Positions 4,178 to 22,651 of a stretch of DNA of 54,075 bases are shown one piece after another. The position numbers and the translations under genes are program-made. The stretch spans positions 1 to 54,075 of the forward strand of contig QIAB01000035.1 of assembly GCA_003225455.1 (NCBI GenBank). Reading direction: 5' to 3'. Origin of the DNA: Acidobacteriota bacterium (GTDB lineage Bacteria > Acidobacteriota > Terriglobia > Terriglobales > Acidobacteriaceae). Numbering within the stretch: position 1 is the first letter of the stretch; each line of letters opens with the position of its first letter. The notes under the pieces are model-generated. The model saw only the letters and a list, made by a program, of their open reading frames with translations, searched no databases and was not told the origin of the DNA.

Positions 4178-6142
4178 ATGTGCGGAATCTGCGGAATTCT
4201 GTATCCCGGGGAGGAACAGCGCGTTCAGCGCGACAGGCTGGCGCAGATGAATGCGCGAATCGTGCATCGCGGACCTGACGATGAGGGCTTTTTTGTCGAA
4301 CGCAACGTCGGGCTGGCTATGCGGCGGCTCAGCATTATCGACATTCGGACTGGACAGCAGCCGATCAGCAACGAGGACGAGAGTCTGTGGATCGTTTACA
4401 ACGGTGAAATCTACAACCACCGGGAACTACGTTCAAAGTTAGAGGCGCGGGGCCACCGTTATCGTACACAAAGCGATACTGAAACAATTATCCATCTATA
4501 TGAAGAATACGGCCGCGATTGTGTGCAGCATCTCCGCGGGATGTTTGCTTTCGCTATATGGGACCGCCGCTCGCGCCGCCTTTTCATTGCGCGTGACCGG
4601 TTAGGGATCAAGCCTCTCTATTATTCTTATGACGGCACAAAGTTTGTTTTCGCCTCTGAGATCAAGGCAATTCTCGCCTACCCTGGTATAAAGCCGGAAT
4701 TCAACCAAAACACACTCGCTGAGTATCTGGCATTCGGTTACATCGCCGGGCCAGAGACCATGTTTGCGGGAATTCGCAAGCTGCTTCCCGGGCACACCCT
4801 GGAATTAGATGATTCGGGTGAAATCAAAATTGAATCGTATTGGGATCTTTCAGTTCCCGCCGACAGCGAGCGCCGTCCGCGTAGTCACTACATTAAGGCT
4901 TACCGCGCACTTCTCGAAGAGTGTGTCGCCAGCCATCTGATGAGTGACGTTCCTCTAGGCGTATTTCTAAGTGGTGGCCTCGACTCCAGTGCGGTCGCTG
5001 CGCTGACCAGCAAAATTCGCGGCGAGCAAATCGAGACCTTTTCGGTTGGCTACGGCGAGGAAGCTTACAGCGAATTGCCCTATGCCCGTGAAGTTGCCCA
5101 GCACATTGGCTCGCTGCATCACGAAGTCCAGCTTAGCCGGCACGAATTCTTCGAATCTCTTCCCAAGCTGATTTGGCATGAAGACGAGCCGATCGTCTGG
5201 CCGTCCAGTGTTTCGTTATATTTTGTGGCTCGGCTGGCACGAGAGCGCGTGACCGTAGTACTAACCGGCGAAGGCAGCGATGAGACCCTGGCTGGCTACA
5301 CGCGTTACGCGTGGACGCTGCAGAATTCCCGCATGGATCGGGTTTACCGGTCGGCAGTGCCATCCGTATTGCGACAACTGGTGCGGCAAGGAATTGCGGC
5401 GGGTCCACTGGGGTCCAGCCTCCATCGCAAATTAGAACACACGTTTCTGGTGCGCGATGGGGCTTCGTGGCCCTCATTCTATTTCGATAATTTCTATTCC
5501 GCTTTTTCCTCTGCTGAAGCAACGGATTTGCTCACGGCCTCAGCCCATGCAACCGCCGGCGATGCCTATCGAGGATCAATGCAGCACTGGGAGCATTCCC
5601 CTGGCGATCTCTTGCACCGGCTGCTGTATACGGATATAAAGACTTATCTCGTTGAACTGCTGATGAAGCAGGATCAGATGAGCATGGCGGCCTCGATTGA
5701 GAGCCGTGTGCCTTTTCTGGACCATGTACTTGTCGAATTTGCTGCGACAATTCCGGCCGAGTTTTCAATCAAAGGTCTCGCGGGGAAGCACATCCTGAAA
5801 ACAGCGGTTGAAGACTTGCTCCCGAAATCGATCATTTACCGCAAGAAGATGGGATTTCCTACACCGTGGGCATCCTGGCTATCCGGGTCGCACTTGGATC
5901 AGCTTGAATCCATGCTGCTCGAGCCCCGGACCACCGCGCGCGGACTATTCAAACGTGACGTCATCCAGCGCCTGTTCGCCGAGCATCGCGCCCAGCGTCG
6001 CGACCACGGAAACCGGATTTGGCGGCTCTTGAACCTGGAAATATGGATGCGCGTTCATCTCGATGGTGAATCCCCACCGCGAGACTTGGAAATTCAAGAA
6101 AATATGGCAGCGCTTCCTGCCCGGCCAGCAGCTTCAGTCTGA
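4178..6142 (+). CDS. asnB: Glutamine-dependent asparagine synthetase-like amidotransferase
   Basis: 654 residues. The protein begins MCGICGI, leaving Cys2 as the N-terminal nucleophile of the class II glutamine amidotransferase domain (to about 215); HRGPDDEG and NGEIYNH are typical pocket motifs. The synthetase domain carries the PP-loop SGGLDSSAV near 264 and LTGEGSDE near 363, which bind ATP. The family amidates aspartate, but copies inside exopolysaccharide loci frequently amidate sugar carboxylates or unknown acids. Here it follows the heparinase by a single base and precedes a deacetylase by 21 bp, so amidation of a uronic-acid polymer is a plausible role (inference). Length is typical for AsnB. 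Confidence 0.92.
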   Translation: MCGICGILYPGEEQRVQRDRLAQMNARIVHRGPDDEGFFVERNVGLAMRRLSIIDIRTGQQPISNEDESLWIVYNGEIYNHRELRSKLEARGHRYRTQSDTETIIHLYEEYGRDCVQHLRGMFAFAIWDRRSRRLFIARDRLGIKPLYYSYDGTKFVFASEIKAILAYPGIKPEFNQNTLAEYLAFGYIAGPETMFAGIRKLLPGHTLELDDSGEIKIESYWDLSVPADSERRPRSHYIKAYRALLEECVASHLMSDVPLGVFLSGGLDSSAVAALTSKIRGEQIETFSVGYGEEAYSELPYAREVAQHIGSLHHEVQLSRHEFFESLPKLIWHEDEPIVWPSSVSLYFVARLARERVTVVLTGEGSDETLAGYTRYAWTLQNSRMDRVYRSAVPSVLRQLVRQGIAAGPLGSSLHRKLEHTFLVRDGASWPSFYFDNFYSAFSSAEATDLLTASAHATAGDAYRGSMQHWEHSPGDLLHRLLYTDIKTYLVELLMKQDQMSMAASIESRVPFLDHVLVEFAATIPAEFSIKGLAGKHILKTAVEDLLPKSIIYRKKMGFPTPWASWLSGSHLDQLESMLLEPRTTARGLFKRDVIQRLFAEHRAQRRDHGNRIWRLLNLEIWMRVHLDGESPPRDLEIQENMAALPARPAASV

Positions 6143-6163: not shown

Positions 6164-7243
6164 GTGCAGCTCACTTTACGGGACATGCGGAAACAAATCC
6201 GGCGGGTCGTCTTACACGTGTTGCGGAATGCGGGAGTTTTTCGCCTCCTGCGCGAGAGTGAATGGCGCAGGCATCGGCTGCTGATTCTTTGCTATCACGG
6301 AATCTCCCTGGAGGATGAGCATCAATGGCGTCCAGGTCTTTACATGGAGCCAAGGGTATTGGAGCAGCGCCTGGAATTCTTGCGAGCGGGCGATTACAAC
6401 GTGCTGCCACTGGGAGAAGCTCTGCAACGCCTATATGCAAACGAACTCCCGCGTCGAAGCGTGAGCATTACCTTCGATGATGGAACTTACGACTTCTACA
6501 AGCAAGCCTACCCGATTGTGAAGAAGTACGGTTTCCCCGTCACGGTTTACCAGACCACTTATTACAGCGCCTGCCGGTTTCCGGTTTTTAACCTGATCTG
6601 CTCATACTTGTTGTGGAAGCGGAAAGGCGCCGTCCTCGATAGTGGCAGAGAATTGGGCCTCGAGCCAGCGATGGATCTGAGAACGGAAGCCGGCCGGCAA
6701 GCAATTGTCACCGAGTTAATGAACTTGTCGGTAACGCAGGGTCTCAGCGGACTCGAGAAAAATGAAGTGGCACGCCGATTAGCGGATCTGCTTGGCGTCG
6801 ATTACGCCGAGTTGGTGCAGAAACGAATTCTTCAACTCATGGGTGCGCAGGAAATTGCAGAGTTATCTCGCGACGGAGTCGACTTTCAACTGCACACTCA
6901 TCGCCATCGCATGCCCAATGATGAGTTCCTGTTCCAGAAAGAAATCGAAGAGAACCGTACGTGTCTGCGTCGTATGTCTCAGAAGGACGCCTTACACTTC
7001 TGTTACCCGAGCGGATTTTACCGCCAACAATTCCTGCCCTGGCTCAAGGCTGAAGGGGTGATTTCAGCTACGACGTGCGATACAGGATTTGCCACATCCC
7101 GAACCAATGCGTTGCTGTTGCCCCGATTTGTTGATACCTCAGGCAGGAGCGAACTGGATTTTGAGAGTTGGCTCACCGGAGCGGGTGATTTCCTTGCAAT
7201 CCGGCGGGCAGCTCGGCAGAAATACATTCCCCCGACTGATTGA
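6164..7243 (+). CDS. Polysaccharide deacetylase (NodB homology, CE4)
   Basis: 359 residues starting at a GTG; an in-frame ATG at 6185 is an alternative and neither has a strong ribosome site. The NodB homology domain is recognised from LLILCYHGI (motif before the domain), SITFDDGTYDFY (the paired Asp of motif 1), and FQLHTHRHRMP (metal-binding His pair of motif 2); CYPSG corresponds to motif 3. These enzymes remove N- or O-acetyl groups from sugars with a divalent metal. An internal stretch rich in Leu/Glu between motifs 1 and 2 makes it longer than a minimal CE4 domain. It ends the heparinase-amidotransferase group and is convergent, 15 bp away, with the CysQ-like gene. Confidence 0.87.
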   Translation: MQLTLRDMRKQIRRVVLHVLRNAGVFRLLRESEWRRHRLLILCYHGISLEDEHQWRPGLYMEPRVLEQRLEFLRAGDYNVLPLGEALQRLYANELPRRSVSITFDDGTYDFYKQAYPIVKKYGFPVTVYQTTYYSACRFPVFNLICSYLLWKRKGAVLDSGRELGLEPAMDLRTEAGRQAIVTELMNLSVTQGLSGLEKNEVARRLADLLGVDYAELVQKRILQLMGAQEIAELSRDGVDFQLHTHRHRMPNDEFLFQKEIEENRTCLRRMSQKDALHFCYPSGFYRQQFLPWLKAEGVISATTCDTGFATSRTNALLLPRFVDTSGRSELDFESWLTGAGDFLAIRRAARQKYIPPTD

Positions 7244-7258
7244 GCCAGCATGTTGCCG

Positions 7259-8065
7259 TTATTGGCCTGCGGCAGCCGGTAAATGGTCGCTGATGATCGC
7301 GAGCAGCTCTTTTTCCAGGTTTGGTCCGCATGCCAGAAGACCAGAAATAAGAGGTGATGTGCTGTTGCACCAAAGAGACGCATTTTCCAGCGTGCGTACC
7401 ACGCCACCCGCGCTTTCTACCAGCGCAGCCCCCGCCGCAACGTCCCACTCATGTTTTGGCGTCAAGGTAAAAGTTGCATCCGCCAATCCTGCTGAAACCA
7501 ACGCAAGTTTGTACGCAACTGAGCCCATCGGCCGAATCGTGAACGGCGCGTTTTCAAATTGCTTCCACTCTCCGCGCTTGACCTCGCTCCGGCTGGCTAA
7601 TACAGCCGCACCGTTTAAGCTGGCGCGGCGGCTCACCTGGACAGGCTTGCCGTTGTAGCTGACGCCAGAATCGACGCCGCCCAGGAAGATCTCATTGGTA
7701 GCGGGATTACAAATTCCTCCAGCGATCGGGTGGCCATCCTCCACCATCGCGACTGACACGCAGAATTCCGGTATCCCGGCAACGAATTCTCGAGTTCCAT
7801 CCAAAGGGTCTACAATCCAAACTCGGTTTGCATTCAAACGCGCAAGATCATCAACACTTTCTTCTGACAACCAGCCTTCGCCGTTGCGCAGCAATTCCTT
7901 GCGAAGTATCGCATCAACACACCTGTCAGCTTCGGTAACCGGATCATGGCCCGCTTTATATTCCGCTTCGATGGCTCCGGGGGTGAAGCGGCTTAGGACT
8001 TGACGCGCCGCGTCCAGTGCGGACGCTATCCGCTCCACGATCTCGGAATTGGGCTTGGAATCCAT
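7259..8065 (-). CDS. cysQ: 3'(2'),5'-bisphosphate nucleotidase-like inositol monophosphatase family protein
   Basis: 268 residues from the ATG at 8065; a GTG at 8101 would add 12 residues and overlap the upstream gene by 10 bp. Motifs of the lithium-sensitive, magnesium-dependent phosphatase family are complete: WLSEES (about 66-71), WIVDPLDGTREF (about 83-94, metal-binding DPLDGT) and HEWDVAAGAALVESAGG. The expected reaction is removal of the 3' phosphate from PAP, the by-product of PAPS-dependent sulfotransferases, which otherwise inhibits them. That role fits its place at the end of a train containing ATP sulfurylase/APS kinase and a sulfotransferase. Inositol- or histidinol-phosphatase activity is the alternative; neighbours favour CysQ. 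Confidence 0.82.
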   Translation of the reverse strand: MDSKPNSEIVERIASALDAARQVLSRFTPGAIEAEYKAGHDPVTEADRCVDAILRKELLRNGEGWLSEESVDDLARLNANRVWIVDPLDGTREFVAGIPEFCVSVAMVEDGHPIAGGICNPATNEIFLGGVDSGVSYNGKPVQVSRRASLNGAAVLASRSEVKRGEWKQFENAPFTIRPMGSVAYKLALVSAGLADATFTLTPKHEWDVAAGAALVESAGGVVRTLENASLWCNSTSPLISGLLACGPNLEKELLAIISDHLPAAAGQ

Positions 8066-8091
8066 GTTGAAGTCTTCAAACTTTAGGATGC

Positions 8092-8859
8092 CTACGCCCA
8101 CAGCATCCGTGCGCCCGTTGCCAGAAGCACGGCGCAGAGTATCCTTCGCAACCAGGGTACGGGAACGCGAGTGCTCAAATGCGATCCAACCAAACCGCCC
8201 GGGATTGAGCCGATCAGAAGCGAGCCTACCAATCGGGGATCGACATTGCCAAGCCGCCAGTGCAGCAGGCTGGTTACGCCGGTAAGCAACACGGCATGCA
8301 CAATGTCGGTACCGACCATCACCTTGGGAGCAAAGCTGTAAAACACGAGCAGCAGCATCATGATAATGCTGCCCGAGCCCACAGAGGTCATGCCCACCAG
8401 GAACCCGGCCAATAGCCCGATGCCCGACATTCCGGCGAAAGACTTCATAGTCGGGGGACGGCCGGCGACGTGCTCTTCAATTCTGGTCTGGAAAAGCATC
8501 AACGTCGGGATGCAGACCAGCAACAGTCCCACCGCAGAAGTAATGAAACTATTTACCCCACTGCCATATACATGTCGCAGGTGCGCCAAGAAAGTCACAC
8601 CTAGAATTGAGCCGGGAATGCTGCCCACCGCAAGTGCCACAACTACTCTGCGTCGAACGGTTCCTTTGCGCAGGTGCATCCATCCGGAGCCGATCTTGGT
8701 CACAAAATTGAAAACCGCATCCGATCCGACGGCCAAGATTGGTGGAACCTTGAGACCAAAAATCAGCAGAGGCAGCAGAAGCACACCGCCTCCAAGCCCC
8801 GTCATGCCGATGAGCGTCCCAACGACCAACCCGATCACGATCTTGGCTGCGATTTCCAT
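8092..8859 (-). CDS. TauE/SafE family sulfite/organosulfur anion permease
   Basis: 255 residues, almost entirely hydrophobic, about eight membrane segments. It begins with VVGTLIGMTGLGGGVLLLPL and repeats the pattern in the second half as LVGMTSVGSGSIIMMLLL, the internal duplication with Gly-rich loops typical of the TauE/SafE (DUF81) family. Members export or import sulfite, sulfoacetate or other sulfur-containing anions across the inner membrane. Lying between sat-cysC (24 bp) and the CysQ-like gene, it probably supplies sulfate or a related anion for PAPS synthesis, or exports a by-product; direction cannot be read from sequence. Confidence 0.88.
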   Translation of the reverse strand: MEIAAKIVIGLVVGTLIGMTGLGGGVLLLPLLIFGLKVPPILAVGSDAVFNFVTKIGSGWMHLRKGTVRRRVVVALAVGSIPGSILGVTFLAHLRHVYGSGVNSFITSAVGLLLVCIPTLMLFQTRIEEHVAGRPPTMKSFAGMSGIGLLAGFLVGMTSVGSGSIIMMLLLVFYSFAPKVMVGTDIVHAVLLTGVTSLLHWRLGNVDPRLVGSLLIGSIPGGLVGSHLSTRVPVPWLRRILCAVLLATGARMLWA

Positions 8860-8883
8860 GACAACAGCGAAGCCGGTTGCTCC

Positions 8884-10635
8884 TTAAGCAGATGCTGCCC
8901 CGGCATTGATACCGACAAACCCTTCCCGTTCCAAATGCAAAATAATTTCCTGGGCGGCTTCTTCCGGGGTCAGATCGGCGGTGTTAATTACCACCTCGGC
9001 ATCCTTTGGCTCCTCATAAGGATCCGAAATCCCCGTGAACTCCTTGACGATGCCGGCGCGCGCTTTGGCATACAAGCCCTTGCGGTCGCGCTGCTCGCAG
9101 GTTTCAAGCGGCGTCGAGATATGCACCAGGATGAACCCTCCCCAGGGCTCGATCATGGCGCGCACTTGCTTACGCACCGCGTCGTAGGGCGCGATTGGAG
9201 CGCAAATCGCGATACCACCGTTCTTCGTGATTTCGGAAGCGACATATCCGATGCGGCGAATGTTGATATCGCGATGCTCCTTCGAAAAGCCGAGCTCCGA
9301 TGAAAGATGCTTGCGCACCAGGTCGCCGTCCAGAAGTGTGACTGGCCGTCCGCCCGTTTCCAGAAATTTTGTGAGCAACACATTTGCGATCGTCGATTTT
9401 CCCGAGCCCGAAAGTCCCGTGAAAAAAATGGTCACACCCTGTTTATGTCGCGGCGGATAGCTTCGCCGCAGTTCCTGCACGACCTCGGGATAAGTGAACC
9501 AAGTGGGAATGTCGCGGCCTTCGTTGAGCCGCTGCCGTAATTCCGTGCCAGAAATGTTCAGCACCCGGGAACCCTTCGTTACCTCGTTATCCGGGACGTA
9601 TTTATCCTCATCTTCCAGGTAAACCATCATGTTGAACTGCACCATGCTCACGCCGACGTCAGTTTCGTGTTTCTTGAACAGTTCCTGCGCTTCATACGGT
9701 CCGTAGAACGGCTTGCCATTCGTGTCATTACCCGGACCGGCATGGTCTCGGCCGACGATGAAATGGGTGCAGCCGTGGTTCTTCCGGATAAGCGCATGCC
9801 AGATAGCCTCGCGAGGTCCTCCCATGCGCATGGCAAGTGGGAGCAGTGAAAGCTTCACTGTCCCGGGCGGGAATTTCGAGAGAAGCAACTGATAGCAGCG
9901 CACGCGTGTGAAATAGTCCACATCGCCCGGTTTAGTCATACCCACCGAAGGATGAATCAACAGATTCGCTTCCACCTGTTTCGCCGCTCGAAACGTCAGC
10001 TCCACATGCGCCCGATGCATGGGATTTCGGGTTTGAAACGCAACCACGCGACGCCATCCCAGACGCGCAAATTCCGCCCTCAGTTCGGAGGGGGTTAAGC
10101 GCAATGATTTGAAATCGTAGTGGGCCGCCGCTTGCACGCCTTCCACCCGGCCTCCGATGTACCACGGGTGCGCCTTATTGAACAGATAGTCAACGCCGGG
10201 GTGCGCATTGCTGGCGCTCTTGAATACCGCTTCGGCCTCCGCTTTCTTGTCTGGCTGCCAGACTTCTGCAACGTGTAACACCGCCAGCATCACGCCTTCG
10301 GGATCGCGCAGCGCAACCGTGCTGCTTCCAGGCTTCAATGACTTGGCGAACTGTTCGGTTACGTCCAGGGTGATCGGCATCGGCCACAGCACGCCGCTTG
10401 CCAGGCGCATGTTGTGGCACACGCCTTCGTAATCGGCCCGCGTCATGAATCCACGCAGTGGAGAGAAGCCCCCACTCATCAGCAACTCCAAATCGCAAAT
10501 TTGCCGCGCGGTTAAATCCCAGGATGGCCATTCCCTGGAATGTGCCTTGAGTTCGTTGCTTCTTTCGGGTTCAGTGAGTAGATTGGCGAGTTCACCGCCG
10601 TGGGGCGGAATAAGATGGCTGGTCGAAGCGGTCAA
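8884..10635 (-). CDS. sat-cysC: Bifunctional sulfate adenylyltransferase / adenylylsulfate kinase (PAPS synthase)
   Basis: 583 residues. The N-terminal half is a homomeric-type ATP sulfurylase: PUA-like domain to about 175, QTRNPMHRAH at 201-210 and VGRDHAGPGN near 294-303, both active-site signatures. The C-terminal part is APS kinase with an intact P-loop GLSGSGKST at 407-415 and a DGD motif near 437. Together they turn sulfate plus two ATP into PAPS in the cytoplasm. The start is TTG, supported by GGGAGG nine bases upstream. No APS/PAPS reductase or sulfite reductase is nearby, while a sulfotransferase gene lies directly upstream. PAPS is therefore more likely destined for sulfation than for cysteine synthesis. 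The 208-bp gap before it may carry a separate promoter. Confidence 0.94.
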   Translation of the reverse strand: MTASTSHLIPPHGGELANLLTEPERSNELKAHSREWPSWDLTARQICDLELLMSGGFSPLRGFMTRADYEGVCHNMRLASGVLWPMPITLDVTEQFAKSLKPGSSTVALRDPEGVMLAVLHVAEVWQPDKKAEAEAVFKSASNAHPGVDYLFNKAHPWYIGGRVEGVQAAAHYDFKSLRLTPSELRAEFARLGWRRVVAFQTRNPMHRAHVELTFRAAKQVEANLLIHPSVGMTKPGDVDYFTRVRCYQLLLSKFPPGTVKLSLLPLAMRMGGPREAIWHALIRKNHGCTHFIVGRDHAGPGNDTNGKPFYGPYEAQELFKKHETDVGVSMVQFNMMVYLEDEDKYVPDNEVTKGSRVLNISGTELRQRLNEGRDIPTWFTYPEVVQELRRSYPPRHKQGVTIFFTGLSGSGKSTIANVLLTKFLETGGRPVTLLDGDLVRKHLSSELGFSKEHRDINIRRIGYVASEITKNGGIAICAPIAPYDAVRKQVRAMIEPWGGFILVHISTPLETCEQRDRKGLYAKARAGIVKEFTGISDPYEEPKDAEVVINTADLTPEEAAQEIILHLEREGFVGINAGAASA

Positions 10636-10843
10636 ATCCGTGAACCTCCCAGGTTCTATGGTTTGTACTGTTCACAACTATTCTCGACTGGACACGCGTT
10701 CCAGACGGCACGACTACGATGATGCGTATACTTGCAGCCAGGGAAGGGAGACAAACGAAATCAAAATTCCCTGCGCCGGACTTTTTTGCGGGCCGTACAG
10801 CATGCGGCCTCATGCGCATTGCAAAATTTCTGACTCACAACGG

Positions 10844-11731
10844 TTAGGAACCCGCCAGCGCCGGCTTCTCCGCCGGAGTGCCCTTAGAGCCGCTCAGTTC
10901 ATAACCCAGACTTTGCATGAGATCTCCCCATTCGCTTTCGATCTGCTGGACCGATTTCGGCGGCAGCTCAGATTTCCAGGTGCCGGACCGTGCTTCTCGC
11001 ACAAATCGCTTGTCCTGGCGAGTGTTTTTCGTAAGCTTCCACTCCTTGGCCTCGGCCTTCTCCAATCGGCGCATACGGTCAGCCGAGCTCAGATCTATCG
11101 CTCGGTTCAAGCGCTCCGGAGTGCCGCTGATGTTCAGGAATTCAGCAATCTTAAGCAGTTCGCGTGCTGGTTGCTGCAACATATCCTCATAGCGAAGCAG
11201 GAGAAAACGACGGTTGTGCCGCATCGCGAGCCAGCCCTGCACATTGTCGTACCATGAACCCCATCGCGGGTCGGACAACAGCCCAGAACCGAATTCGCCG
11301 CTCATAAATAGCGGGACGAAGTCCTCCACTGGGAAGTCCTCTGGCAAGATATTTACTTTGATCGAGTAGTGATATGCGGAGACGGCCACATCCCGGGGGT
11401 CGCGCGTAATGTAAATCACATTCTTGTACCTGGGATCGAAACACTCGTGACTCTTAAAGATCCGCGGCAAATGGCGCAATTGGCGATCTGAGAAAAGATA
11501 GAGTGAAGGAATTCGCGATTCGACATTGGCGAACGTAATGGGCTCGTCGGGATAGATCAGGTTACCGATTAAGAATCGGGTCCAGGTATTCCCTGACCTG
11601 GGATACGAGACGATGAATAGATCCCCCGCGCGTACCGTTACCTGCCGGCCAGCTGGGATTCGATGCCAAAGAAAGTCCCACGTTGAGCCGAGGTGCTGCA
11701 ATCCTAACTTTAGTTTCCGCGATCCGTTCAT
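10844..11731 (-). CDS. PAPS-dependent sulfotransferase
   Basis: 295 residues, one Sulfotransfer_1 domain. The 5'-phosphosulfate loop is SYPRSGNTW at 42-50, and the 3'-phosphate motif is ITRDPRDVAVSAYH at 108-121, where Arg and Ser contact the PAP 3' phosphate. Near the C terminus FVREARSGTWKSE matches the RxGxxxxWK-type PAPS-binding loop. The enzyme should transfer sulfate from PAPS to a hydroxyl or amine. The whole-domain cytosolic type, without a signal or membrane anchor, means the acceptor is cytoplasmic or a lipid-linked precursor. It follows the ATP-grasp/phosphatase gene by 43 bp and precedes sat-cysC. AAGG lies three bases before the ATG. The acceptor is unknown. Confidence 0.92.
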   Translation of the reverse strand: MNGSRKLKLGLQHLGSTWDFLWHRIPAGRQVTVRAGDLFIVSYPRSGNTWTRFLIGNLIYPDEPITFANVESRIPSLYLFSDRQLRHLPRIFKSHECFDPRYKNVIYITRDPRDVAVSAYHYSIKVNILPEDFPVEDFVPLFMSGEFGSGLLSDPRWGSWYDNVQGWLAMRHNRRFLLLRYEDMLQQPARELLKIAEFLNISGTPERLNRAIDLSSADRMRRLEKAEAKEWKLTKNTRQDKRFVREARSGTWKSELPPKSVQQIESEWGDLMQSLGYELSGSKGTPAEKPALAGS

Positions 11732-11774
11732 TGCCTTAACTCAAGTCCATTCGCAAGCCTAAACTCCGATACTC

Positions 11775-13613
11775 TCAACTGGGCAGCAGAGCTGGTTTTA
11801 TGATCCCCTTGGCCTCTTTCCGGGGAGCGATGCTTCGCGCCAGATTTCTGACGCATTGCATCAATATGGCATAGCATCGCCGGGTGGTTTCCTCGTCGCC
11901 ATAGTACGGATCTGTGATCTCGCGATTGCGCTGCTTTCCTTCGGCAAAGGCGCTGAGCATATGAATCTTGTACCGCGCCTCAGGATAGACTGCATACAGT
12001 TCGGCAAGATTTTCAAAATCCATGGCAAAAATCAGATCCGAGGATGCAACTATCTCGGGGTTGAGCAACTGCGCTCGATGATTGTCGAGCGGAATGCCAA
12101 TCTCGTGCGACACTTTTAGCGCCAAAGGGTGGGCCTCGCGCCGCGCGCGCGCATGCAGCCCAGCCGATTTGACTCCGATGCCGCTAGCTCCTTGCTCGGC
12201 GAGCACTCGTTTCAGCATCGCTTCCGCCATTGGGCTGCGCATGATGTTTCCGTAGCAGACGAACACTACTGACGTCGCGGTGCGAGGAATGAGCTGCCCA
12301 CCGTCCCGACTCCTGCTCAAAGCATCAGTGGTACGTAACTTCGCGTAGATAGGGCGCGCCTCCGGCCGCAGGCGTAAGTAGATTTTCGCATACCTGCTCA
12401 TGCCCCCCGGAATAAGCTTCCGCAGCAGCCAATTGACTGCTGCGGTGAGATGTTCGTATATCGAGGCAGCCAACTCAGAGAAGAACGGCTCCGGATCGGA
12501 CCATGACCACAGCGCCTCGTGGGTCGTCGAAAAGAGATCTATCGGAGTCTGAGCGAGTTCGCGGATCCGCGAAGTCTTACAATTTCCGCTAGAGTTTGCC
12601 ATGATGCTGTAAAGGCGATCCAGATATCCAGGCGTCCAACGCCAGCGCGTGCCGACGGCGTACTTACCAGGCACACGCGGCTGTTCGCCATGCAAAATTT
12701 GCCAATGATAAAGCGGAAAGTCGACGCCGGCGAGGATGGGAAGTGATGATGTCCCCCAATATCGACCATTTACTTCCATGAAAACGCGGTTCCCAGTCTG
12801 ACGGTCGACCCGGAATTCCACCATAGCAGGGCCTTCCCACTCCAGTGCGCGCAGTAATTTCAGAGATGCGTCGCGCAGCCCAGGATCGAGAGCCTCGGCA
12901 ACAGCCATTACTGCAACCCCACCGCTGGCGGGAGCTTCCTTCAATCTGCGATGCTGGAATGCAGCAACACATTCGCCTTTGTGCAGCAGCATCTCTACTC
13001 CGACGCCAATGCCAGGGCAGTACTCCTGCAGCAAAACAAGGCCCGGATCGTTCATTCGCAGAGCTTCCGACAACTTTTCAAAGGTAGGGAAGGTGCGCAC
13101 CCGGAAAACCTTCGCGCCTTTTTGCCCAGGCTTGGCTACAAGTGGAAAGCGAAGCTGCGCGGCCACCTGCTCCAGTTCAGTGATATTCCCGACGGTGCAG
13201 GTGAACGGCACATGGATCCCGCATTTTTTCGCCGCTTCCAAAGTAAGAGCTTTATTTAGCACGCGCTCGACGGCGCTAGGCGGCGGACAGCCAACATGCA
13301 AAAGCGGAGCCAGGCGGTCGTAGTGCTCAGCTAGCGCTGATAATGCGGGATCGCCGGTCGGCAGCACCATGTCGAATCCGCGCTCACGAATCAATGCCAG
13401 AAGCGAATCGATAAATTTTGTTGGATAGATATCCTTCAGCGGCAGGCGATGGAAGGCGCGAATGGCGCGTGAGCGCAGTCCCGGCTCGGTCGCCAAAAAG
13501 GAGGCGACTTCTACGGGGATTCCGCGGCGATGCAGCGAGCGTGCGACCGCCAGAGAGATGCGCGGGGCAGCGCCCAAAATCAGCACGGGCCGGTAGTTCG
13601 AATTGCTTGCCAT
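11775..13613 (-). CDS. ATP-grasp ligase fused to a low-molecular-weight protein tyrosine phosphatase domain
   Basis: 612 residues. Residues 1-400 form an ATP-grasp protein: N-terminal LILGAAPRISLAVARSLHRR, VAKPGQKGA (ATP-binding Lys near 161) and FMEVNGRYWG at 278-287, with the magnesium-binding Glu/Asn pair. This subgroup usually ligates amino acids or other carboxylates. Residues 447-605 are a complete LMW-PTP (Wzb-like) domain with P-loop CYGNIMRS at 453-460 and the acid loop DPYYGD. The second P-loop cysteine, normally CRS, is Met. Wzb-type phosphatases control tyrosine kinases in capsule export. The single open frame, with no linker stop, argues for a genuine fusion. It lies between flippase (24 bp) and sulfotransferase (43 bp). 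Substrates of both halves are unknown. Confidence 0.85.
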   Translation of the reverse strand: MASNSNYRPVLILGAAPRISLAVARSLHRRGIPVEVASFLATEPGLRSRAIRAFHRLPLKDIYPTKFIDSLLALIRERGFDMVLPTGDPALSALAEHYDRLAPLLHVGCPPPSAVERVLNKALTLEAAKKCGIHVPFTCTVGNITELEQVAAQLRFPLVAKPGQKGAKVFRVRTFPTFEKLSEALRMNDPGLVLLQEYCPGIGVGVEMLLHKGECVAAFQHRRLKEAPASGGVAVMAVAEALDPGLRDASLKLLRALEWEGPAMVEFRVDRQTGNRVFMEVNGRYWGTSSLPILAGVDFPLYHWQILHGEQPRVPGKYAVGTRWRWTPGYLDRLYSIMANSSGNCKTSRIRELAQTPIDLFSTTHEALWSWSDPEPFFSELAASIYEHLTAAVNWLLRKLIPGGMSRYAKIYLRLRPEARPIYAKLRTTDALSRSRDGGQLIPRTATSVVFVCYGNIMRSPMAEAMLKRVLAEQGASGIGVKSAGLHARARREAHPLALKVSHEIGIPLDNHRAQLLNPEIVASSDLIFAMDFENLAELYAVYPEARYKIHMLSAFAEGKQRNREITDPYYGDEETTRRCYAILMQCVRNLARSIAPRKEAKGIIKPALLPS

Positions 13614-13637
13614 CGGATTTGCGGAGCGGGAGCTCGC

Positions 13638-15200
13638 CTACGCTTCCTCCTGCTGGTAGGTTTCGACCAGCGCCATCGCAGTTTCCCTGGCAGTTTCTTC
13701 ATCGCGAATGCCTTCGACCTGCCAAGCCTTGTGCGTCCAAATGGCCCAGACTAGTCCGAGCGCGTAGATGCCAGAACCAACCAAAAGCTGAACGGCCAAT
13801 TGAAGATAGCTGTGGGCGACGAACCAATGCCGCATCAAGAGCAGAACCGCGATGAGCGGCATCGTGAGCGCCAGCGGCAGCACAAACGCCTGGCGTACGT
13901 AGGTTCGCACTCGCAGACCTAATACCCGGCACAGATGCCGAGGCAAGAACCATAAAGTTGTGCAAGTGAGTGGGATCGCCGTTCCCACCGCATCGCCCAT
14001 GATTCCGAATCGCCGTACCAAAACTATGCTGAGTATCAGGTTTGCGACGCCCTCCATAAAAACCACTATGGCAAGGGTCTTGTGTTTAGCCATTCCGAAT
14101 AATGTTCGCGCGGAGGCTGCCTGCGCCAGCATGAAAGTTGAGGGGATTAGCAGCACCAGCAGCACGGGATAGCTGATCGCTACGTAACGGTGACCCACCC
14201 AGACCTCGATAACTGACTTGCCGAGAATAATCAGAATAGCGGCGATCGGAAAAATGATCAGTGCGCAGGCGCGATTGCCTGCCACGAAAATCTTTCGCAA
14301 GCGGTCCATGTCGCCGGTTGCGTCCGACTGGCTGGACATCGGAACAAAAATTTGCGCCAGACTACTGATGACCTCTCCGGCATAATCCACCAGGCGTGAC
14401 CCGATAGCAAAATAGGTGATCGCAGCTGACGAGACAAATGTTCCGATGACCATGGCGTCGGTCTTGAAGCGCAGGCGGCCAGCCATAATGATCATGAATG
14501 TTGCGCCGCTGTAATTCGCGATTCGCCGTAAGCTGCTGCGATCAACATATCTCGGGCCAAAGCGGAGGGGCACCAGGTGGAGTACGACTGTCGCATTCAC
14601 TAGAGCGGCTAACAATGGCAGCGATACCGTAATCAGTGCCACGGTCAGCAATCCTCCACCACGCCGTAGAGCGAGCACGATCAGCGAAGCCCGCAACAAA
14701 GTGGAAGAGACGCTGGTGAAGTTCAGCAGATAAAAACGCTGCAAGCCTTCTAGAATCCCGCCAAACACGCCGAGGGGAAAACCCAGAGACACTGCCGTTC
14801 CCACGACCAGAAATAACAGCCGCGCCGTGGTCAGAAAATTTGTGGGAACTTTGAAAATGGAGGCCACATAAAATGCGCCAGTGAAAGTCACGAGCAGCGC
14901 CAGCATTCCCACGCTGCCGTAGCTAGCCATGGCAGTGTTGATCAGTCGGGTCAATTCTTCATAGTCATTAGTGGCGGAATATTTGGCGACATAGCGGACG
15001 ATGGAAGAGCGAATCCCCAGATCGAACAGGCCGTAATAACCCGTGATGGAAAAAATCAGAACCCAGAGGCCGAAGGCCTCATCCCCCAGCCGGTGAAGAA
15101 TATAAGGCGAAAGAAAGATCCCAACCAGTACATTCACGCCCAGAGCAAACCAGCTGGAGCCGACGTTCTTTAGAATCTCAACTTTATCCAACTGCTTCAT
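13638..15200 (-). CDS. Wzx-like oligosaccharide flippase / MATE-superfamily exporter
   Basis: 520 residues with about 12-14 membrane segments. The start KNVGSSWFALGVNVLVGIFL and the following YILHRLGDEAFGLWVLIFSI match the N-terminal pattern of polysaccharide biosynthesis (Wzx/MurJ/MATE) exporters, where the first helices end in a short GxxxFG-like turn. Such proteins flip undecaprenyl-linked oligosaccharides across the inner membrane. Lying 24 bp after the NRPS and 24 bp before the ATP-grasp/phosphatase gene, it is the evident export step of this locus. Whether it carries a lipid-linked glycan or the NRPS product cannot be decided from sequence. Confidence 0.87.
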   Translation of the reverse strand: MKQLDKVEILKNVGSSWFALGVNVLVGIFLSPYILHRLGDEAFGLWVLIFSITGYYGLFDLGIRSSIVRYVAKYSATNDYEELTRLINTAMASYGSVGMLALLVTFTGAFYVASIFKVPTNFLTTARLLFLVVGTAVSLGFPLGVFGGILEGLQRFYLLNFTSVSSTLLRASLIVLALRRGGGLLTVALITVSLPLLAALVNATVVLHLVPLRFGPRYVDRSSLRRIANYSGATFMIIMAGRLRFKTDAMVIGTFVSSAAITYFAIGSRLVDYAGEVISSLAQIFVPMSSQSDATGDMDRLRKIFVAGNRACALIIFPIAAILIILGKSVIEVWVGHRYVAISYPVLLVLLIPSTFMLAQAASARTLFGMAKHKTLAIVVFMEGVANLILSIVLVRRFGIMGDAVGTAIPLTCTTLWFLPRHLCRVLGLRVRTYVRQAFVLPLALTMPLIAVLLLMRHWFVAHSYLQLAVQLLVGSGIYALGLVWAIWTHKAWQVEGIRDEETARETAMALVETYQQEEA

Positions 15201-15224
15201 GAATTTTGTGTTTTCGACAATGAC

Positions 15225-18200
15225 TCAGTTCGATGACGAGGAAATCAGGGAAGCTTCGAGCGCCTGAAACTCAGATTCCCTAGGCCGCTTGCCTAAGCGC
15301 TTTACACATGCCGCGAGTTGCTCTCCTACAGGCCGCACGTACGGCTCACGAAGTAATTCATCGTGATCGAACTCGATTTCGTGGATCTCCACTCCGCCCT
15401 GGCTACGTTGGCCCCAACCCATCTCGGGATCATCGACGTAGTAGAAAGGCTGTTTCGGCCGTTTGAACAGGATCACCGGAGCCCGGAAGCGGCTGGGAGT
15501 GAAGCCCTCAGGCCAATACGCACGGTACCATTCACTTCTACCCAGAGACTTACCCGTCAACTTCCTCCATTCGCTACTAACGGCGCGCTTGCAGATCTCC
15601 CATTGCTGCGAGAAATTCATCTTCGTCAACTCCCTCAAGCGCTGGCGAAAGTACTCAATCCGCCACAGCCATAATCGCTGGCTGTGCTGGAGCACCCAGG
15701 TGTCGAAAATAGCGAGTAGGCTGACCTCCTGTCCTTGCGTTTCCAGATCGCAAACCATTCTTTCGGCGATCTGGACTCCTTCACACATTCCGCCCAGGCA
15801 GTATGGGCCTTCCGGCTGAACCGCGCGCATGGCTGCGATGTATTCTCGAGACAGCGAACGCAAGTCTTCCTCGGCGAAAGGTCTGCCCACGACAACAGGC
15901 GCGTGGCCCTGTAGCTTGTAAACTGTTTGGTCTGGCCCCATGTGACGGGCCAACAGACCGAAGCCGAGCGTTTCCACCCCCGGCGAAGCAACCGCGAAGA
16001 AGGGCAATCCATCGCCGCCACGCTGGATTTCCATTACAACCGGATCAGGATTAGCCTCGCCGCCTTCACGGATTAATTTTGCCAGCGACTCCACTGTCGC
16101 TCCGCGGAACAAAGCCGAGAGAGGAATCTGCCGTCCCGCAACTTTCTCCACCTCCGAAAGCAGTCGCGCGGCCATCAGAGAGTGGCCACCAAGGTCAAAA
16201 AAATTATCCGTCACACCAACACCCGGGATGCCCAGCACCTTCTGCCAGATCTTCACCAGCATTGTCTCCAGCTGATCCCGCGCCGCTATCGAGGGAGCAC
16301 TCTCGCCTTGCGACCAATCAGGGGCGGGCAGGGCACGACGATTGATTTTTGCGTTGGGTGTGAGCGGCAGCGCATCCATGTTCACGACAGCACTGGGGAT
16401 CATGTATTCCGGTAGACGTTCCTTTAGAGACGCCCGCAGCTCGAGACTGGAGGCGTATTTACCAGGCACGAAGACAACATAGGCGACAAGCCGCTTGTCT
16501 CCCGGTTTATCTTCGCGCGCAACTACGACGGCCGCTTGCACGGCAGAATGCTCCGCCAGCACCGATTCGATCTCGCCCAATTCAATCCGGAAGCCGCGAA
16601 TCTTTACCTGGTTATCCATTCGTCCCAGGTATTGAATGTTCCCATCCGGCAGAAACCGCGCCAGATCGCCTGTGCGATACATGTGAGCCTCAGAATTGGT
16701 ACTAAACGGGTCAGGAACAAAGCGCTCCGCTGTTAGCTCCGGCCGTTGGAAGTAGCCCCGAGCTAACCCCTCTCCACCGATACAAATCTCGCCAGGCACT
16801 CCGATGGGGACTAAGTTGCGATTGGCATCAAGAACATACGTTCTTGTGTTGGCGATGGGACGGCCGATGGGAACTGTGCCATCGTGTTTGTCCCTGACCC
16901 GATACACTGTGGACCAGATGGTAGTCTCCGTTGGGCCGTACATGTTCCAGACCTCGCCACAGCACTCTACTAGCTGGTGGGCCAACTCCGATGGAAGAGC
17001 TTCACCGCCGACCAGCACCTTCAGTTTGCGGTCACCTTTCCAGCCGGATTCAAGTAGTAAGCGCCAGGTTGCAGGCGTAGCCTGCATCACGGTAGTGCCG
17101 CAGCGCTCCATTAGCTGCGCCAGCAGGCGTCCGTCGTAAGTCTGCTCCCGGCTCGCGACCACCAGACGTGCTCCGGCCAGCAGGGGCAGGTACATTTCCA
17201 GTCCAGCGATGTCAAAGGAAAGGGTTGTGACTGCCACTAGAACATCATTCCTGCTAAGCCCTGGCTCCCGCTGCATGGAGCAAAGAAAATTCACCACGCT
17301 CCGATGTTCCAATTGAACGCCCTTCGGCTTGCCCGTAGAGCCTGACGTGTAAATCACATACGCAAGGTTTTCCGGGCTGACGTCGGCAGGAATTTCCAGC
17401 TCACTCTCGCCTGTCAGAGCTTTCCATTCAGGATCTAAGCAAACGACAGCTGCCGAAGTCGATGGTAGCGATGATAGCAGCGACTCCTGCGTAATCAGAA
17501 CTTTGACTTGAGCGTCGTCGAGGACGTATTTGATGCGGTCGCTGGGATAAGCGGGATCCAGCGGAACGTAAGCTCCACCAGCTTTCAGTATCCCGAGGAG
17601 CGCGACTACCATCTCCAGCGAGCGCTCGACGCACAAGCCCACGAGGACCTCGCGCTGTACTCCAAGTTTGCGCAAGAGGCTGGCTAATTGGTTCGCGCGA
17701 GCATCCAGTCGGGCATAGGTAAGCGATCGCCCTTCAAACTGGACTGCGATTGCTGCCGGCGTGCATTTTGCCTGTGCTGCGAGAAGCTCGTGCAGGCATG
17801 CATTTCTCGGATAATCGAACTCTGTTTGATTAAATTCCGCGAGAATCAATTTCTGCTCTGCATCGCCCAAAAGCGGCAGTTCAGAGACGCGGCGCGCCGG
17901 ATCTGCAACCATTTCCTCCAGCAATTTACGGAAGTACCCGGCCATTCGCGAAATCGTTTCTACTTTGAATAAGTCGTGGTTGTAGCTAAACTTTGCATCC
18001 AGCCTTCCATCTCGCTCAACCACATTGACAGAAAGATCGAACCTTTCAGTCTTGGCTTCGATCTCCACCGGCGTTACTGTCACGCCTGGGATTTGCCATT
18101 GACGAACCGCAGGCGGGCGCATACTGAACGCAATTTGGAACAATGGATTGCGGCTCAGGTCGCGCTCAGGATTGAGTTCGTCAACCAGCTGTTCGAAAGG

Positions 18201-19289
18201 AAAATCTTGATGCGCATGGGCGGCTTCGACTGTCGCATGCACACGGTGCAGCAGTTCCAACACACTAGGATCGCCGGAAATATCGGTGCGCAGCACCAAT
18301 GGATTGGCAAACAATCCAATGGCACTTAGCGTTTCTGGACAGCTGCGTCCCGATACTTCCGTCCCCAGCACCAAGTCATCCTGTGCGCTGTACCGCCATA
18401 GCAAAATGTTGAAGGCTGTAAGTAGAGCAGTGAACAACGTGACGTGCTGGCTGCGGCTCAGATCCTGCAAACGTTTATACACTGTTGACGAAATCTGCGT
18501 AGTGCAAGTGGCGCCCCGAAAGCTCTGCACGGGCGGGCGCGAGTGGTCTGTTGGCAGGTCCACGCTCGATGGGGCTCCGGCCAGTTGTTGCTTCCAATAG
18601 GCGAGCTGCGATTGCAGTTCGTCATTCAACAATTCTTCCCGCTGGGTTCTCGCGAACTCAAGATATCCACGCGATGCTTCGTCTGGATTCCAGGACTCGC
18701 CTCGAAGCCTGGCCGAATAACAAGCTGCGATTTCCGCAAACAAGATCTGCAGCGACCGTTCATCACAAATAATTCGGTGAACAATCAGCAGCAGAATGTG
18801 TTCTGAAGGAGAGAGCCGGAGAATCTGTGTCCGAAACAGCGGGCCACGGCTCAAATCGAAAGGCTTGCCGACCTCTCCATACAGCAGCTGCGAAACTCGA
18901 CTATCTTTTGTTGCCGCGGGAATATCGCTGAGATCGAGTGATGTCGCAGCAACGGCGTCGCGCGGGAGGATCACCTGCACCGGTTCGCCATGTTCCACGT
19001 GGAATTCAACGCAGAGAATTTCGTGCCACCCGGCCACTGCATTCAGCGCACTTTGCACCGCATCTAGGTCCAGCGGTCCGTCCAGCCGCACGGCGAAGGC
19101 GGGGTTGTAAACTCCGTTGCCGGGTTCCAGACGATCCAGTACCCACAAGCGTTGCTGCGCAAGTGAAAGCGGAAACGAGCGGCGCTGTGCCTCACTCGCG
19201 CTTGACACGTGGGAGCCTGATTCCAAGGCTTGGCCTTCGGACGTGTTTGCCATACCTGGCTTATGGATCTCCAAGCCCAAACTCTGCAT
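15225..19289 (-). CDS. Single-module non-ribosomal peptide synthetase (C-A-T-TE)
   Basis: About 1354 residues from the first ATG (19289); an ATG at 19253 and a TTG at 19301 are alternatives. Order: condensation (about 35-470; SLAQQRLWVLDRLEPG), adenylation (about 485-985; YTSGSTGKPKG, NMYGPTETT, GEICIGGEGLARGYF), carrier (DNFFDLGGHSLM, Ser as pantetheine site), thioesterase (about 1090-1330). The condensation active site reads HRIICDE instead of HHxxxDG (residues 171-177), so its catalytic His is missing. The thioesterase nucleophile elbow is GMCEG with Cys near 1169. Adenylation pocket residues I extract are D-I-L-Q-V-G-M-I-W(-K), close to codes I recall for glycine. As first gene of a train with flippase and sulfotransferase, it probably activates one amino acid for attachment to a partner molecule. 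Confidence 0.9.
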   Translation of the reverse strand: MQSLGLEIHKPGMANTSEGQALESGSHVSSASEAQRRSFPLSLAQQRLWVLDRLEPGNGVYNPAFAVRLDGPLDLDAVQSALNAVAGWHEILCVEFHVEHGEPVQVILPRDAVAATSLDLSDIPAATKDSRVSQLLYGEVGKPFDLSRGPLFRTQILRLSPSEHILLLIVHRIICDERSLQILFAEIAACYSARLRGESWNPDEASRGYLEFARTQREELLNDELQSQLAYWKQQLAGAPSSVDLPTDHSRPPVQSFRGATCTTQISSTVYKRLQDLSRSQHVTLFTALLTAFNILLWRYSAQDDLVLGTEVSGRSCPETLSAIGLFANPLVLRTDISGDPSVLELLHRVHATVEAAHAHQDFPFEQLVDELNPERDLSRNPLFQIAFSMRPPAVRQWQIPGVTVTPVEIEAKTERFDLSVNVVERDGRLDAKFSYNHDLFKVETISRMAGYFRKLLEEMVADPARRVSELPLLGDAEQKLILAEFNQTEFDYPRNACLHELLAAQAKCTPAAIAVQFEGRSLTYARLDARANQLASLLRKLGVQREVLVGLCVERSLEMVVALLGILKAGGAYVPLDPAYPSDRIKYVLDDAQVKVLITQESLLSSLPSTSAAVVCLDPEWKALTGESELEIPADVSPENLAYVIYTSGSTGKPKGVQLEHRSVVNFLCSMQREPGLSRNDVLVAVTTLSFDIAGLEMYLPLLAGARLVVASREQTYDGRLLAQLMERCGTTVMQATPATWRLLLESGWKGDRKLKVLVGGEALPSELAHQLVECCGEVWNMYGPTETTIWSTVYRVRDKHDGTVPIGRPIANTRTYVLDANRNLVPIGVPGEICIGGEGLARGYFQRPELTAERFVPDPFSTNSEAHMYRTGDLARFLPDGNIQYLGRMDNQVKIRGFRIELGEIESVLAEHSAVQAAVVVAREDKPGDKRLVAYVVFVPGKYASSLELRASLKERLPEYMIPSAVVNMDALPLTPNAKINRRALPAPDWSQGESAPSIAARDQLETMLVKIWQKVLGIPGVGVTDNFFDLGGHSLMAARLLSEVEKVAGRQIPLSALFRGATVESLAKLIREGGEANPDPVVMEIQRGGDGLPFFAVASPGVETLGFGLLARHMGPDQTVYKLQGHAPVVVGRPFAEEDLRSLSREYIAAMRAVQPEGPYCLGGMCEGVQIAERMVCDLETQGQEVSLLAIFDTWVLQHSQRLWLWRIEYFRQRLRELTKMNFSQQWEICKRAVSSEWRKLTGKSLGRSEWYRAYWPEGFTPSRFRAPVILFKRPKQPFYYVDDPEMGWGQRSQGGVEIHEIEFDHDELLREPYVRPVGEQLAACVKRLGKRPRESEFQALEASLISSSSN

Positions 19290-19605
19290 TTGATCTGCCA
19301 AGCCGGATTTGGAGAATCTGCAATTTCGTCATTTGGCCTGTTCGTAACTTGCTGATATTGCCGAATTTACATTTCAATCGATGTGTTTCCGCCAGCTTCT
19401 CTTTTCAAAATGCGCAAGAAGTTGCAGATTTCAAGTCCCTCGCTTCGGTCAGCGCAAGCGAGCTCGGCAAAGAGATTATAGTCGAGAGTTGACGGCTTCA
19501 GTAGCGGCAGGTCCTACTTTCCACATGACGACATTGTCTTCAAAACCGGCTCTGCAAGCGAGTATCATGGAGCGCGGTCTTATAGGCGGAAGGAGCATTT
19601 TGCGT
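19290..19605. other. Divergent intergenic region upstream of the NRPS train
   Basis: 316 bp between the leftward NRPS and a rightward small gene. It contains a 13-base inverted pair with one mismatch, AATCTGCAATTTC (19315-19327) and GAAGTTGCAGATT (19418-19430), about 90 bp apart, which could be an operator or chance. The promoter for the NRPS-to-cysQ genes should lie here. No gene seen. Confidence 0.4.
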
Positions 19606-22617: not shown

Positions 22618-22651
22618 TTAGTCCCGGCGCTCGCTAGTTCCGTGGCTGGGT
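22618..22651. repeat. 34-bp direct repeat, copy 2
   Basis: Second copy of the repeat at 20021-20054. Here the complement of the central CTAG provides the stop codon of the leftward GT2 gene, the mirror of what copy 1 does for the rightward gene. Confidence 0.75.

Follow-up and report, generated by a model that had tools for sequence, protein, structure and literature searches.

What does a bacterium make with a nonribosomal peptide synthetase (NRPS) that stands in one row with a flippase and the genes for sulfation? The question arises from a 54,075-nucleotide stretch of acidobacterial DNA (assembly GCA_003225455.1, contig QIAB01000035.1), here called the window. In it, seven minus-strand genes encode, in order, a single-module NRPS with condensation (C), adenylation (A), carrier (T) and thioesterase (TE) domains, a Wzx flippase, a fusion of an ATP-grasp domain with a low-molecular-weight protein tyrosine phosphatase (LMW-PTP), a sulfotransferase, Sat-CysC, TauE and CysQ. 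The locus is real and recurrent, it is best seen as a variation on exosortase-linked exopolysaccharide systems and not as a novel type, and its NRPS is more interesting than its sulfation genes. The fullest explanation, to which we give about an even chance, is that it serves as the decoration branch of a Wzx-dependent exopolysaccharide pathway of the exosortase-associated (XrtA-like) kind.

Composition and recurrence of the locus

The genes of the row, which beside the NRPS and flippase include those predicted to supply and use 3'-phosphoadenylyl sulfate (PAPS) and to remove its by-product, are annotated as follows.

15225..19301, minus strand: single-module NRPS, C-A-T-TE, 1358 aa, start codon provisional (Pfam/NCBIfam, PDB relatives)
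13638..15200, minus strand: Wzx-like flippase (PF13440, PF01943)
12414..13613, minus strand: ATP-grasp half of the fusion protein (Pfam, NCBIfam, predicted fold)
11841..12269, minus strand: LMW-PTP (Wzb-like) half of the fusion, CX5R intact (PF01451)
10844..11731, minus strand: PAPS-dependent sulfotransferase, Sulfotransfer_1 (Pfam, motifs)
8884..10635, minus strand: bifunctional Sat-CysC, PAPS synthase (NF004040, 934 bits, cut-off 669)
8092..8859, minus strand: TauE/SafE-family permease (PF01925)
7259..8101, minus strand: CysQ-like inositol-phosphatase-family protein, probable phosphatase of the by-product 3'-phosphoadenosine 5'-phosphate (PAP) (PF00459; TIGR01331, 129 bits, below the cut-off of 228.8)

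Analysis of open reading frames (ORFs) with Pfam and NCBIfam bears out in full the gene set, order, strand and domain calls of an initial annotation of this DNA, along with its first three gaps, which measure 24 bp (NRPS to Wzx), 24 bp (Wzx to the ATP-grasp/LMW-PTP gene) and 43 bp (from there to the sulfotransferase). The 208 bp between the sulfotransferase and Sat-CysC are the sole natural break in the row; Sat-CysC and TauE lie 24 bp apart, and TauE overlaps CysQ by 10 bp. A scan of positions 7200-19500 for a sigma-70-like consensus was uninformative, with one site, on the plus strand, where shuffled sequences average 5.7. The sulfotransferase (SYPRSGNTW, RDPRDVAVS), the phosphatase (CYGNIMRS), the A domain (YTSGSTG, LPLTPNAKINR) and the T domain (LGGHSL) all have intact motifs, which we take to carry their usual functional meaning. 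Because position 1 of the window is base 1 of its contig (C11), the locus is truncated on the low-coordinate side.

A search with the TE domain across 397 genomes of the order, the window's own included, finds it at E <= 1e-40 in 23. In 11 of these, from five genera, Wzx, sulfotransferase or Sat-CysC genes are found close to the NRPS (the window's own genome G000, with G187, G324, G092, G165, G135, G282, G356, G390, G241 and G295). The remaining 12 (G057, G070, G118, G134, G161, G182, G198, G227, G234, G235, G285 and G393) show other NRPS contexts or no such neighbours inside the fetched pieces; Sat-CysC is on the NRPS contig yet about 24 kb away in G070 and about 48 kb away in G118. Duplicate records (L002/G356, L023/G070, L013/G087) are counted once in genome tallies, and one alignment (A2) keeps such duplicates, for example the identical L030 and L055. 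The initial annotation had tied a sulfation cassette to glycan genes and an NRPS, and had named lack of conservation in relatives as the observation that would speak against this link. With the set recurring in 11 of 397 genomes, that objection fails, because sulfation, glycan and NRPS genes co-occur in relatives.

The arrangement varies. All seven genes are present in G324 (L161) together with a gene for a phosphopantetheinyl transferase (PPTase), in the contiguous order NRPS, PPTase, ATP-grasp/LMW-PTP, Wzx, sulfotransferase, Sat-CysC, TauE, CysQ, while G282 reads PPTase, Sat-CysC, TauE, CysQ, NRPS, Wzx. Parts of the locus occur in differing orders in G187, G135, G092 and G165, with homologs of the window's AsnB and heparinase genes in all four fetched pieces and a strong CE4 homolog in those of G187, G092 and G165, not G135. 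A PPTase gene adjoins the NRPS or Sat-CysC in nine of the 11 cluster genomes (three by Pfam, the others by similarity), and the window genome holds a PPTase-family gene, a 226-codon frame, on contig C45. The PPTase is not a specific partner, because it is also found next to Sat-CysC in several loci lacking this NRPS and next to the TE-bearing NRPSs of G182, G118 and G198.

Comparison with G072, which has the nearest Sat-CysC (88%), bears on how the row was assembled. There, GT2, PPTase, Sat-CysC, TauE and CysQ genes are contiguous. In the window, NRPS, Wzx, ATP-grasp/LMW-PTP and sulfotransferase, with two plus-strand ORFs, separate Sat-CysC from the following gene.

22634..23407, minus strand: GT2 glycosyltransferase, with homologs upstream of Sat-CysC in several relatives (similarity)

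Because the run from GT2 to Sat-CysC is contiguous in G072 and interrupted in the window, the four genes look like a cassette inserted upstream of another unit. The ATP-grasp/LMW-PTP protein is less fixed: it has matches at E <= 1e-30 in 21 of 200 genomes, where the ATP-grasp and PTP parts are often encoded by two genes. In predicted fold its ATP-grasp half is nearest to an L-amino-acid ligase (3vot), with biotin carboxylases scoring almost as high and all matches at 10-20% identity; between these fold matches a substrate is not assignable. Remoter fusions of the two domains, at about 25-30% identity, occur in Gammaproteobacteria (L015-L020, L022, L024, L025, L027), namely Thalassotalea, Glaciecola, Alteromonas, Aestuariibacter, Vibrio and Photobacterium.

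The noncanonical peptide synthetase

Two features of the NRPS go beyond the initial annotation: the C-domain motif (HRIICDE) and the TE motif (GGMCEG). Set against a canonical C-A-T-TE elongation module, the protein lacks HHxxxDG; its A, T and TE motifs are present, the TE nucleophile being a cysteine.

17844..19181, minus strand: C domain, full length, HRIICDE instead of HHxxxDG (Pfam, motif reading, divergence)
18759..18779, minus strand: codons of HRIICDE, residues 175-181, Arg at the second His (alignment)
16332..17804, minus strand: A domain, predicted glycine-type, D-I-L-Q-L-G-M-I-W (LgrA match, code comparison)
16071..16259, minus strand: T (carrier) domain with LGGHSL (Pfam, motif)
15225..16046, minus strand: TE domain with Cys nucleophile; TE residues C88, D115, H228 (14-sequence alignment, model)
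15783..15785, minus strand: codon of the TE nucleophile Cys (GGMCEG, residue 1173; motif reading)

At the HHxxxDG position, G135, G092 and G282 read HRIVCDE, G165 HRMVCDA, G324 HQVACDE, G241 PRLCADE, with both His gone, and G187 HHIVFDS. The second His is thus lost in seven of eight cluster NRPS C domains, while all 33 of the other readable ones, drawn from loci fetched from cluster and related genomes, retain it (L159, unreadable at the motif, was dropped). The cluster NRPSs of G356, G390 (C126) and G295 run into contig ends and have no readable C domain. A quick LG+G4 tree computed after masking the motif, with L163 and L161 as long end branches and 13 open forks, places all seven His-loss domains on the same side of a branch supported at 98% (SH-aLRT), so a single loss of the second His suffices.

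The C domain also diverges faster than the rest of the protein. Three serine-type A domains are 77-79% alike and their C domains 47%; because A-domain swapping could partly explain such drift, the TE was taken as the yardstick. Identity in the C domain minus that in the TE averages -14.2 points over 28 cluster NRPS pairs (range -31 to -7), a set that includes the His-retaining G187. For the controls, 91 pairs of non-cluster NRPSs that share the TE type, the average is 0.0 (-12 to 12). Pairs in both sets share sequences and hence are non-independent. A gap of this kind would be expected if constraint on the C domain had been relaxed or altered, and the window NRPS is probably no ordinary peptide elongator.

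A different account would have the C domain still condense with the help of a substitute base; the changes from H to R and from G to E would then suit it to small acceptors, and the product would be a short peptide or an acyl-donor conjugate. HHxxxDE is enriched with small acceptors and some His mutants are partly active, according to passages of one study (PMC8097023), and HH is retained in G187. However, Arg or Gln at the second His, and the loss of both His in G241, exceed the described change from DG to DE, and the C domain appears to have lost constraint relative to its own TE, so this account strikes us as improbable.

The choice of amino acid can be predicted from the A domain. Among solved structures it matches LgrA's second A domain best (721 bits; the next protein scores 490), a domain that we take to be the glycine one. 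Val and Gly are the substrates given for LgrA in a table of PMC11253843. By eye, the alignment columns at the specificity positions read D-I-L-Q-L-G-M-I-W, identical at the nine positions to the glycine code DILQLGMIWK as printed in PMC12283262, while the code of G135, G092, G165 and G324, D-V-W-H-F-S-L-V-D, is that given for serine in EntF in PMC3795760. The window A domain is predicted to be glycine-type and those of these four relatives serine-type. A text search of the literature for a further code, DILQLGLIWK, found none; the A domain of G282 we take to be for alanine.

Three observations concern related adenylation proteins. The window A domain (16332-17804) matches TIGR03098, an exosortase-A-associated acyl-CoA ligase, at 249 of 592 bits, below cut-off, and in the XrtA loci of other bacteria a comparable step may be carried out by a distinct set of ligase, carrier and hydrolase. 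In G165, a stand-alone amino-acid adenylation protein (L149:11204-12844, minus strand) and a prolyl-carrier-dehydrogenase-like (PigA/RedW-like) protein (L149:15689-16876, minus strand) near exopolysaccharide genes suggest additional carrier-bound amino-acid chemistry. An ORF that fills a 4.2-kb contig of G390 (C626; L155:1-4173, minus strand) reads A-TE-C-A, with the TE ahead of the C domain, which could reflect a tandem arrangement or an assembly effect.

The TE carries a cysteine where serine is usual, and its Cys, Asp and His are invariant in 14 of 14 aligned relatives. Its predicted model (mean pLDDT 80, weak at residues 118-124) matches thioesterases of NRPSs, polyketide synthases and fatty acid synthases, AB3403 coming first and the SulM TE structure being among the matches; AB3403 and EntF/SrfA-C are also the PDB relatives that share the four-domain layout of the whole NRPS. 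These likenesses would suit an NRPS that makes a small diffusible or membrane-bound product (an N-acyl-amino acid, a lipoamide or a sulfated amino-acid conjugate, on which the sulfotransferase may act) and merely neighbours glycan genes. Cys-TEs elsewhere act in beta-lactam or lactone formation, and sulfazecin, the product tied to SulM, presumably likewise combines a Cys-TE with sulfation. The same TE terminates multi-module NRPSs of the family, and an AMP-binding protein is encoded 17 kb from the cluster (36765-37958). Nonetheless, the second His is gone and the C domain fast-evolving in cluster copies, glycan genes are the recurrent neighbours, and no fatty-acyl ligase or stand-alone carrier is found in the cluster or in the relatives' scanned flanks, among ORFs of at least about 80-150 codons. 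A small product of this kind is rather unlikely. Although the window A domain is closest to LgrA's second, and layout and TE fold are those of AB3403, no peptide or monobactam partner genes were identified in the window cluster to match LgrA, AB3403 or SulM.

The loading of a small amino acid followed by transfer through the Cys-TE, without condensation, fits the facts best. Its logic is shared with the AlmEFG glycine modification of Vibrio lipopolysaccharide and with Dlt D-alanylation, in which an amino acid is adenylated, loaded on a carrier and transferred to an envelope glycan or lipid (PMC3783018). Those systems, in contrast, use separate proteins and other transferases (the LPLAT AlmG, and DltB), and the passages of that source describing them mention no NRPS C domain or Cys-TE (PMC3783018). 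The shuttles LgnA (TE-like) and CmaE (acyltransferase-like) likewise move aminoacyl groups between carriers rather than hydrolysing them, as described in parts of PMC8748450; they are stand-alone proteins that act between T domains, whereas the acceptor in the window would be a glycan. More broadly, and tentatively, the cluster NRPSs may form a class in which a switched-off C domain accompanies a Cys-TE serving as aminoacyl-glycan transferase, so that soil Acidobacteriota would build exopolysaccharides bearing both sulfate and aminoacyl groups (zwitterionic, glycosaminoglycan-like), and exchange of A domains (Gly, Ser, perhaps Ala) would vary the amino acid between strains.

Sulfate activation, probably for both sulfation and assimilation

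The claim of the initial annotation that no reductase of adenylyl sulfate (APS) or PAPS and no sulfite reductase is present stands for the window cluster and falls for the assembly. Contig C18 of the window genome holds a CysH-type reductase, siroheme genes and a nitrite/sulfite-reductase-family protein, whose best NCBIfam models (nitrite reductase and NirA) are below cut-off and which presumably reduces sulfite. The CysH passes a model named phosphoadenylyl-sulfate reductase, reaches 221 of 235 bits with the APS-reductase model, just below cut-off, and carries CC and GCxxC, which we take to be the APS-reductase signature. Sat-CysC is the only ATP sulfurylase found in the 95%-complete assembly (a single PF01747 match), and CysD has no match there. 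Sat-CysC should also serve assimilation, because it is the sole ATP sulfurylase found, CysD gave no match, and CysH and the sulfite-reductase-family gene are on C18. On the grounds of that single match, the lack of CysD and the CysH on C18, a purely dedicated PAPS source was rejected, and with it the dedicated route that the initial annotation had proposed.

Among 200 genomes (separate draws of 200, treated as identical by their shared handles, with the window's own genome among them), Sat-CysC is found in 33 and CysD in 134, never together, and neither in 33 (Fisher p ~1e-19; Fisher values for Sat-CysC associations ignore genome relatedness). The count of 33 comprises matches that span both halves at >=73% identity, among them G196, in which the gene is divided between two contigs, and G004, with an internal stop, and excludes ten genomes matching one half only (Sat-like 37-40% or CysC-like 49-55%). 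Sulfotransfer_1 genes, counted only by PF00685 at E <= 1e-10, are present in 31 of the 33 Sat-CysC genomes and in eight of the 167 others. Of the 32 other genomes, 31 had their Sat-CysC loci fetched, in pieces of about 10-40 kb. Every one of these 31 has CysQ close to Sat-CysC, and 27 have TauE there; the same piece or pieces carry a Wzx homolog in 17 and a Sulfotransfer_1-like gene in 13. Sat-CysC thus looks like the clade's general sulfate activator, found mostly in sulfation-capable genomes.

Carried to its limit, this could mean that Sat-CysC, TauE and CysQ are the clade's sulfate-assimilation unit, lying by chance beside an exopolysaccharide island, with sulfation minor or absent. The enzyme's standing as sole ATP sulfurylase, without CysD and with reductase genes on C18, speaks for it, as do the constancy of CysQ (31/31) and TauE (27/31) near Sat-CysC, often without the NRPS, and the CysH match to a phosphoadenylyl-sulfate reductase model, since such an enzyme would use the product of CysC. 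We nevertheless consider it very improbable: Sulfotransfer_1 genes occur mostly in the Sat-CysC genomes (31/33 against 8/167), the PAPS motifs of the window sulfotransferase are intact, and the CysH has the motifs assumed above to mark an APS reductase. If CysH is an APS reductase, the APS-kinase half would be unneeded for assimilation.

A proposed exosortase-linked exopolysaccharide system

The glycan side of the locus is seen in the genes near the low-coordinate end of the window.

6164..7243, plus strand: CE4 polysaccharide deacetylase facing the cluster, with homologs near the cluster in several relatives (Pfam, NCBIfam)
4178..6142, plus strand: AsnB-type amidotransferase, XrtA/PEP-CTERM-like (TIGR03108, 584 bits, below the cut-off of 816.9)
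1777..4176, plus strand: heparinase II/III-family protein (Pfam, NCBIfam)
216..1454, minus strand: GT4 glycosyltransferase, XrtA-system stp1-like (TIGR03087, 215 bits, below the cut-off of 316.65)

Exosortase (PF09721) is present in all seven of the 11 cluster genomes that were tested (G000, G092, G187, G165, G135, G324, G282), and in six of them an OPX (PF02563) export gene lies within about 3 kb of it. Both genes are on the cluster contig, 35-51 kb from the NRPS TE, in G135, G092 and G165 (TE to exosortase about 37, 47 and 51 kb, respectively); in G000, G187, G324 and G282 the exosortase is on other contigs. In G092 the intervening DNA (L148) codes for an EpsB_2-type sugar-phosphate transferase that passes its cut-off (456 bits; 393), four proteins below their XrtA cut-offs (O-ligase 82/188, tyrosine kinase 141/231, ATPase 301/325, chain-length 207/279), a second AsnB-type protein and a protein assigned by similarity to the Sulfotransfer_3 type. 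In G092, G135 and G187 the GT4 homolog has UDP-glucose-dehydrogenase-family genes as neighbours. No Wzy or export genes were identified among the scanned proteins flanking the cluster.

With the XrtA/PEP-CTERM loci (NCBIfam TIGR03xxx) the window shares the AsnB-type amidotransferase and the stp1-like GT4, and G092 the exosortase, EpsB_2, kinase, chain-length and O-ligase-like genes; the differences are that only EpsB_2 passes its cut-off and that the NRPS and sulfation genes are extra here. This toolkit compares better than the NodB/NodH/NodPQ kit of the initial annotation, a likeness that proved weak. NodPQ is of the CysDN/CysC kind, the window has a Sat-CysC fusion and its genome no CysD, and the window CE4 has no NodB match in NCBIfam, its best being a partial PgaB match. 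A Nod-factor-like product was rejected on the missing NodB match and on the fusion in place of CysDN. Another CE4 protein beside the G187 and G165 clusters reaches 23-33 bits with the NodB model (cut-off 240).

Sulfated exopolysaccharide clusters offer two further comparisons. The synechan xss cluster of Synechocystis is a Wzx/Wzy-type exopolysaccharide locus with its own sulfotransferases (PMC8205485), and, as there, Wzx and a PAPS sulfotransferase stand in one cluster in the window and its relatives. It differs in belonging to another phylum, in a gene list without an NRPS, the term nonribosomal being absent from the text, and, in the passages on it, the absence of a PAPS-supply unit (PMC8205485). 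The wps-1 cluster of Actinoplanes missouriensis shares Wzx/Wzy genes and has two putative sulfotransferases, but the main text of its description names no peptide synthetase, adenylation, ATP-grasp or CysC protein and merely suggests a sulfated product (PMC13390465). A full-text search of the open-licence literature found no paper joining NRPS, Wzx and sulfotransferase. Glycosaminoglycan-like exopolysaccharides of marine bacteria are reportedly treated in a 2014 review.

In the decoration branch proposed here, Sat-CysC would make PAPS, and the sulfotransferase would sulfate a lipid-linked glycan in the cytoplasm; CysQ would clear the by-product PAP, TauE would transport a sulfur anion, and Sat-CysC would double as the cell's sulfate-assimilation enzyme. 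The NRPS A domain would activate a small amino acid (glycine in the window, serine in several relatives) and load the T domain. The C domain would form no peptide bond because it has lost the catalytic His, and the Cys-TE would accept the aminoacyl group and pass it on to the same lipid-linked glycan, or to a sugar precursor of it, at a hydroxyl or amine. Wzx would flip the decorated unit, and the LMW-PTP would reset the tyrosine kinase of the export system. The gene set, its recurrence, the motif states and, in three relatives, the same-contig linkage to exosortase and export genes are read directly from the genomes; the acceptor, transfer step, order of steps and polymer we infer, the acceptor and its identity with the sulfated glycan from gene neighbourhood alone.

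Several points weigh against this explanation. The exosortase and OPX genes of the window assembly are on contig C170, separate from C11, and the window AsnB and GT4 fall short of the XrtA cut-offs (584/817 and 215/317). Product and acceptor are both predictions. The same Cys-TE occurs away from such loci in C-TE proteins and in multi-module NRPSs, where it presumably releases peptides, and G182, G118 and G198 have a Cys-TE NRPS outside the locus with an adjoining PPTase. Versions of the locus without the NRPS exist in G070 and G161; the amino acid is therefore optional. G187 retains HH (HHIVFDS), so that its C domain may condense, and all readable cluster C domains are still about full length and therefore still do something. 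Loss of His does not always abolish C-domain activity, mutants with residual activity being reported in the parts of PMC8097023 that also describe working HHxxxDE domains with a glycine acceptor.

A conserved sulfation locus in soil Acidobacteriota would broaden the picture of bacterial sulfated polysaccharides. If a glycan does receive an amino acid by NRPS-type loading, the enzymology of secondary metabolites would be united with the biology of the envelope, and a testable prediction follows from the missing His of the C domain.

Other genes lie around the clusters. Acetyltransf_6 (GNAT) proteins are encoded beside those of G187 (L101:6070-7431, plus strand) and G324 (L161:14813-15982, plus strand; 16440-17804, minus strand). 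In the window, a large CARDB protein is encoded at 20162-22591 (plus strand), with homologs (624 and 903 bits) less than 25 kb from Sat-CysC in G070 and G161, and an AMP-binding (PF00501) protein with a downstream diacylglycerol-kinase-family protein occupies 36765-39319 (plus strand), about 17 kb from the cluster.

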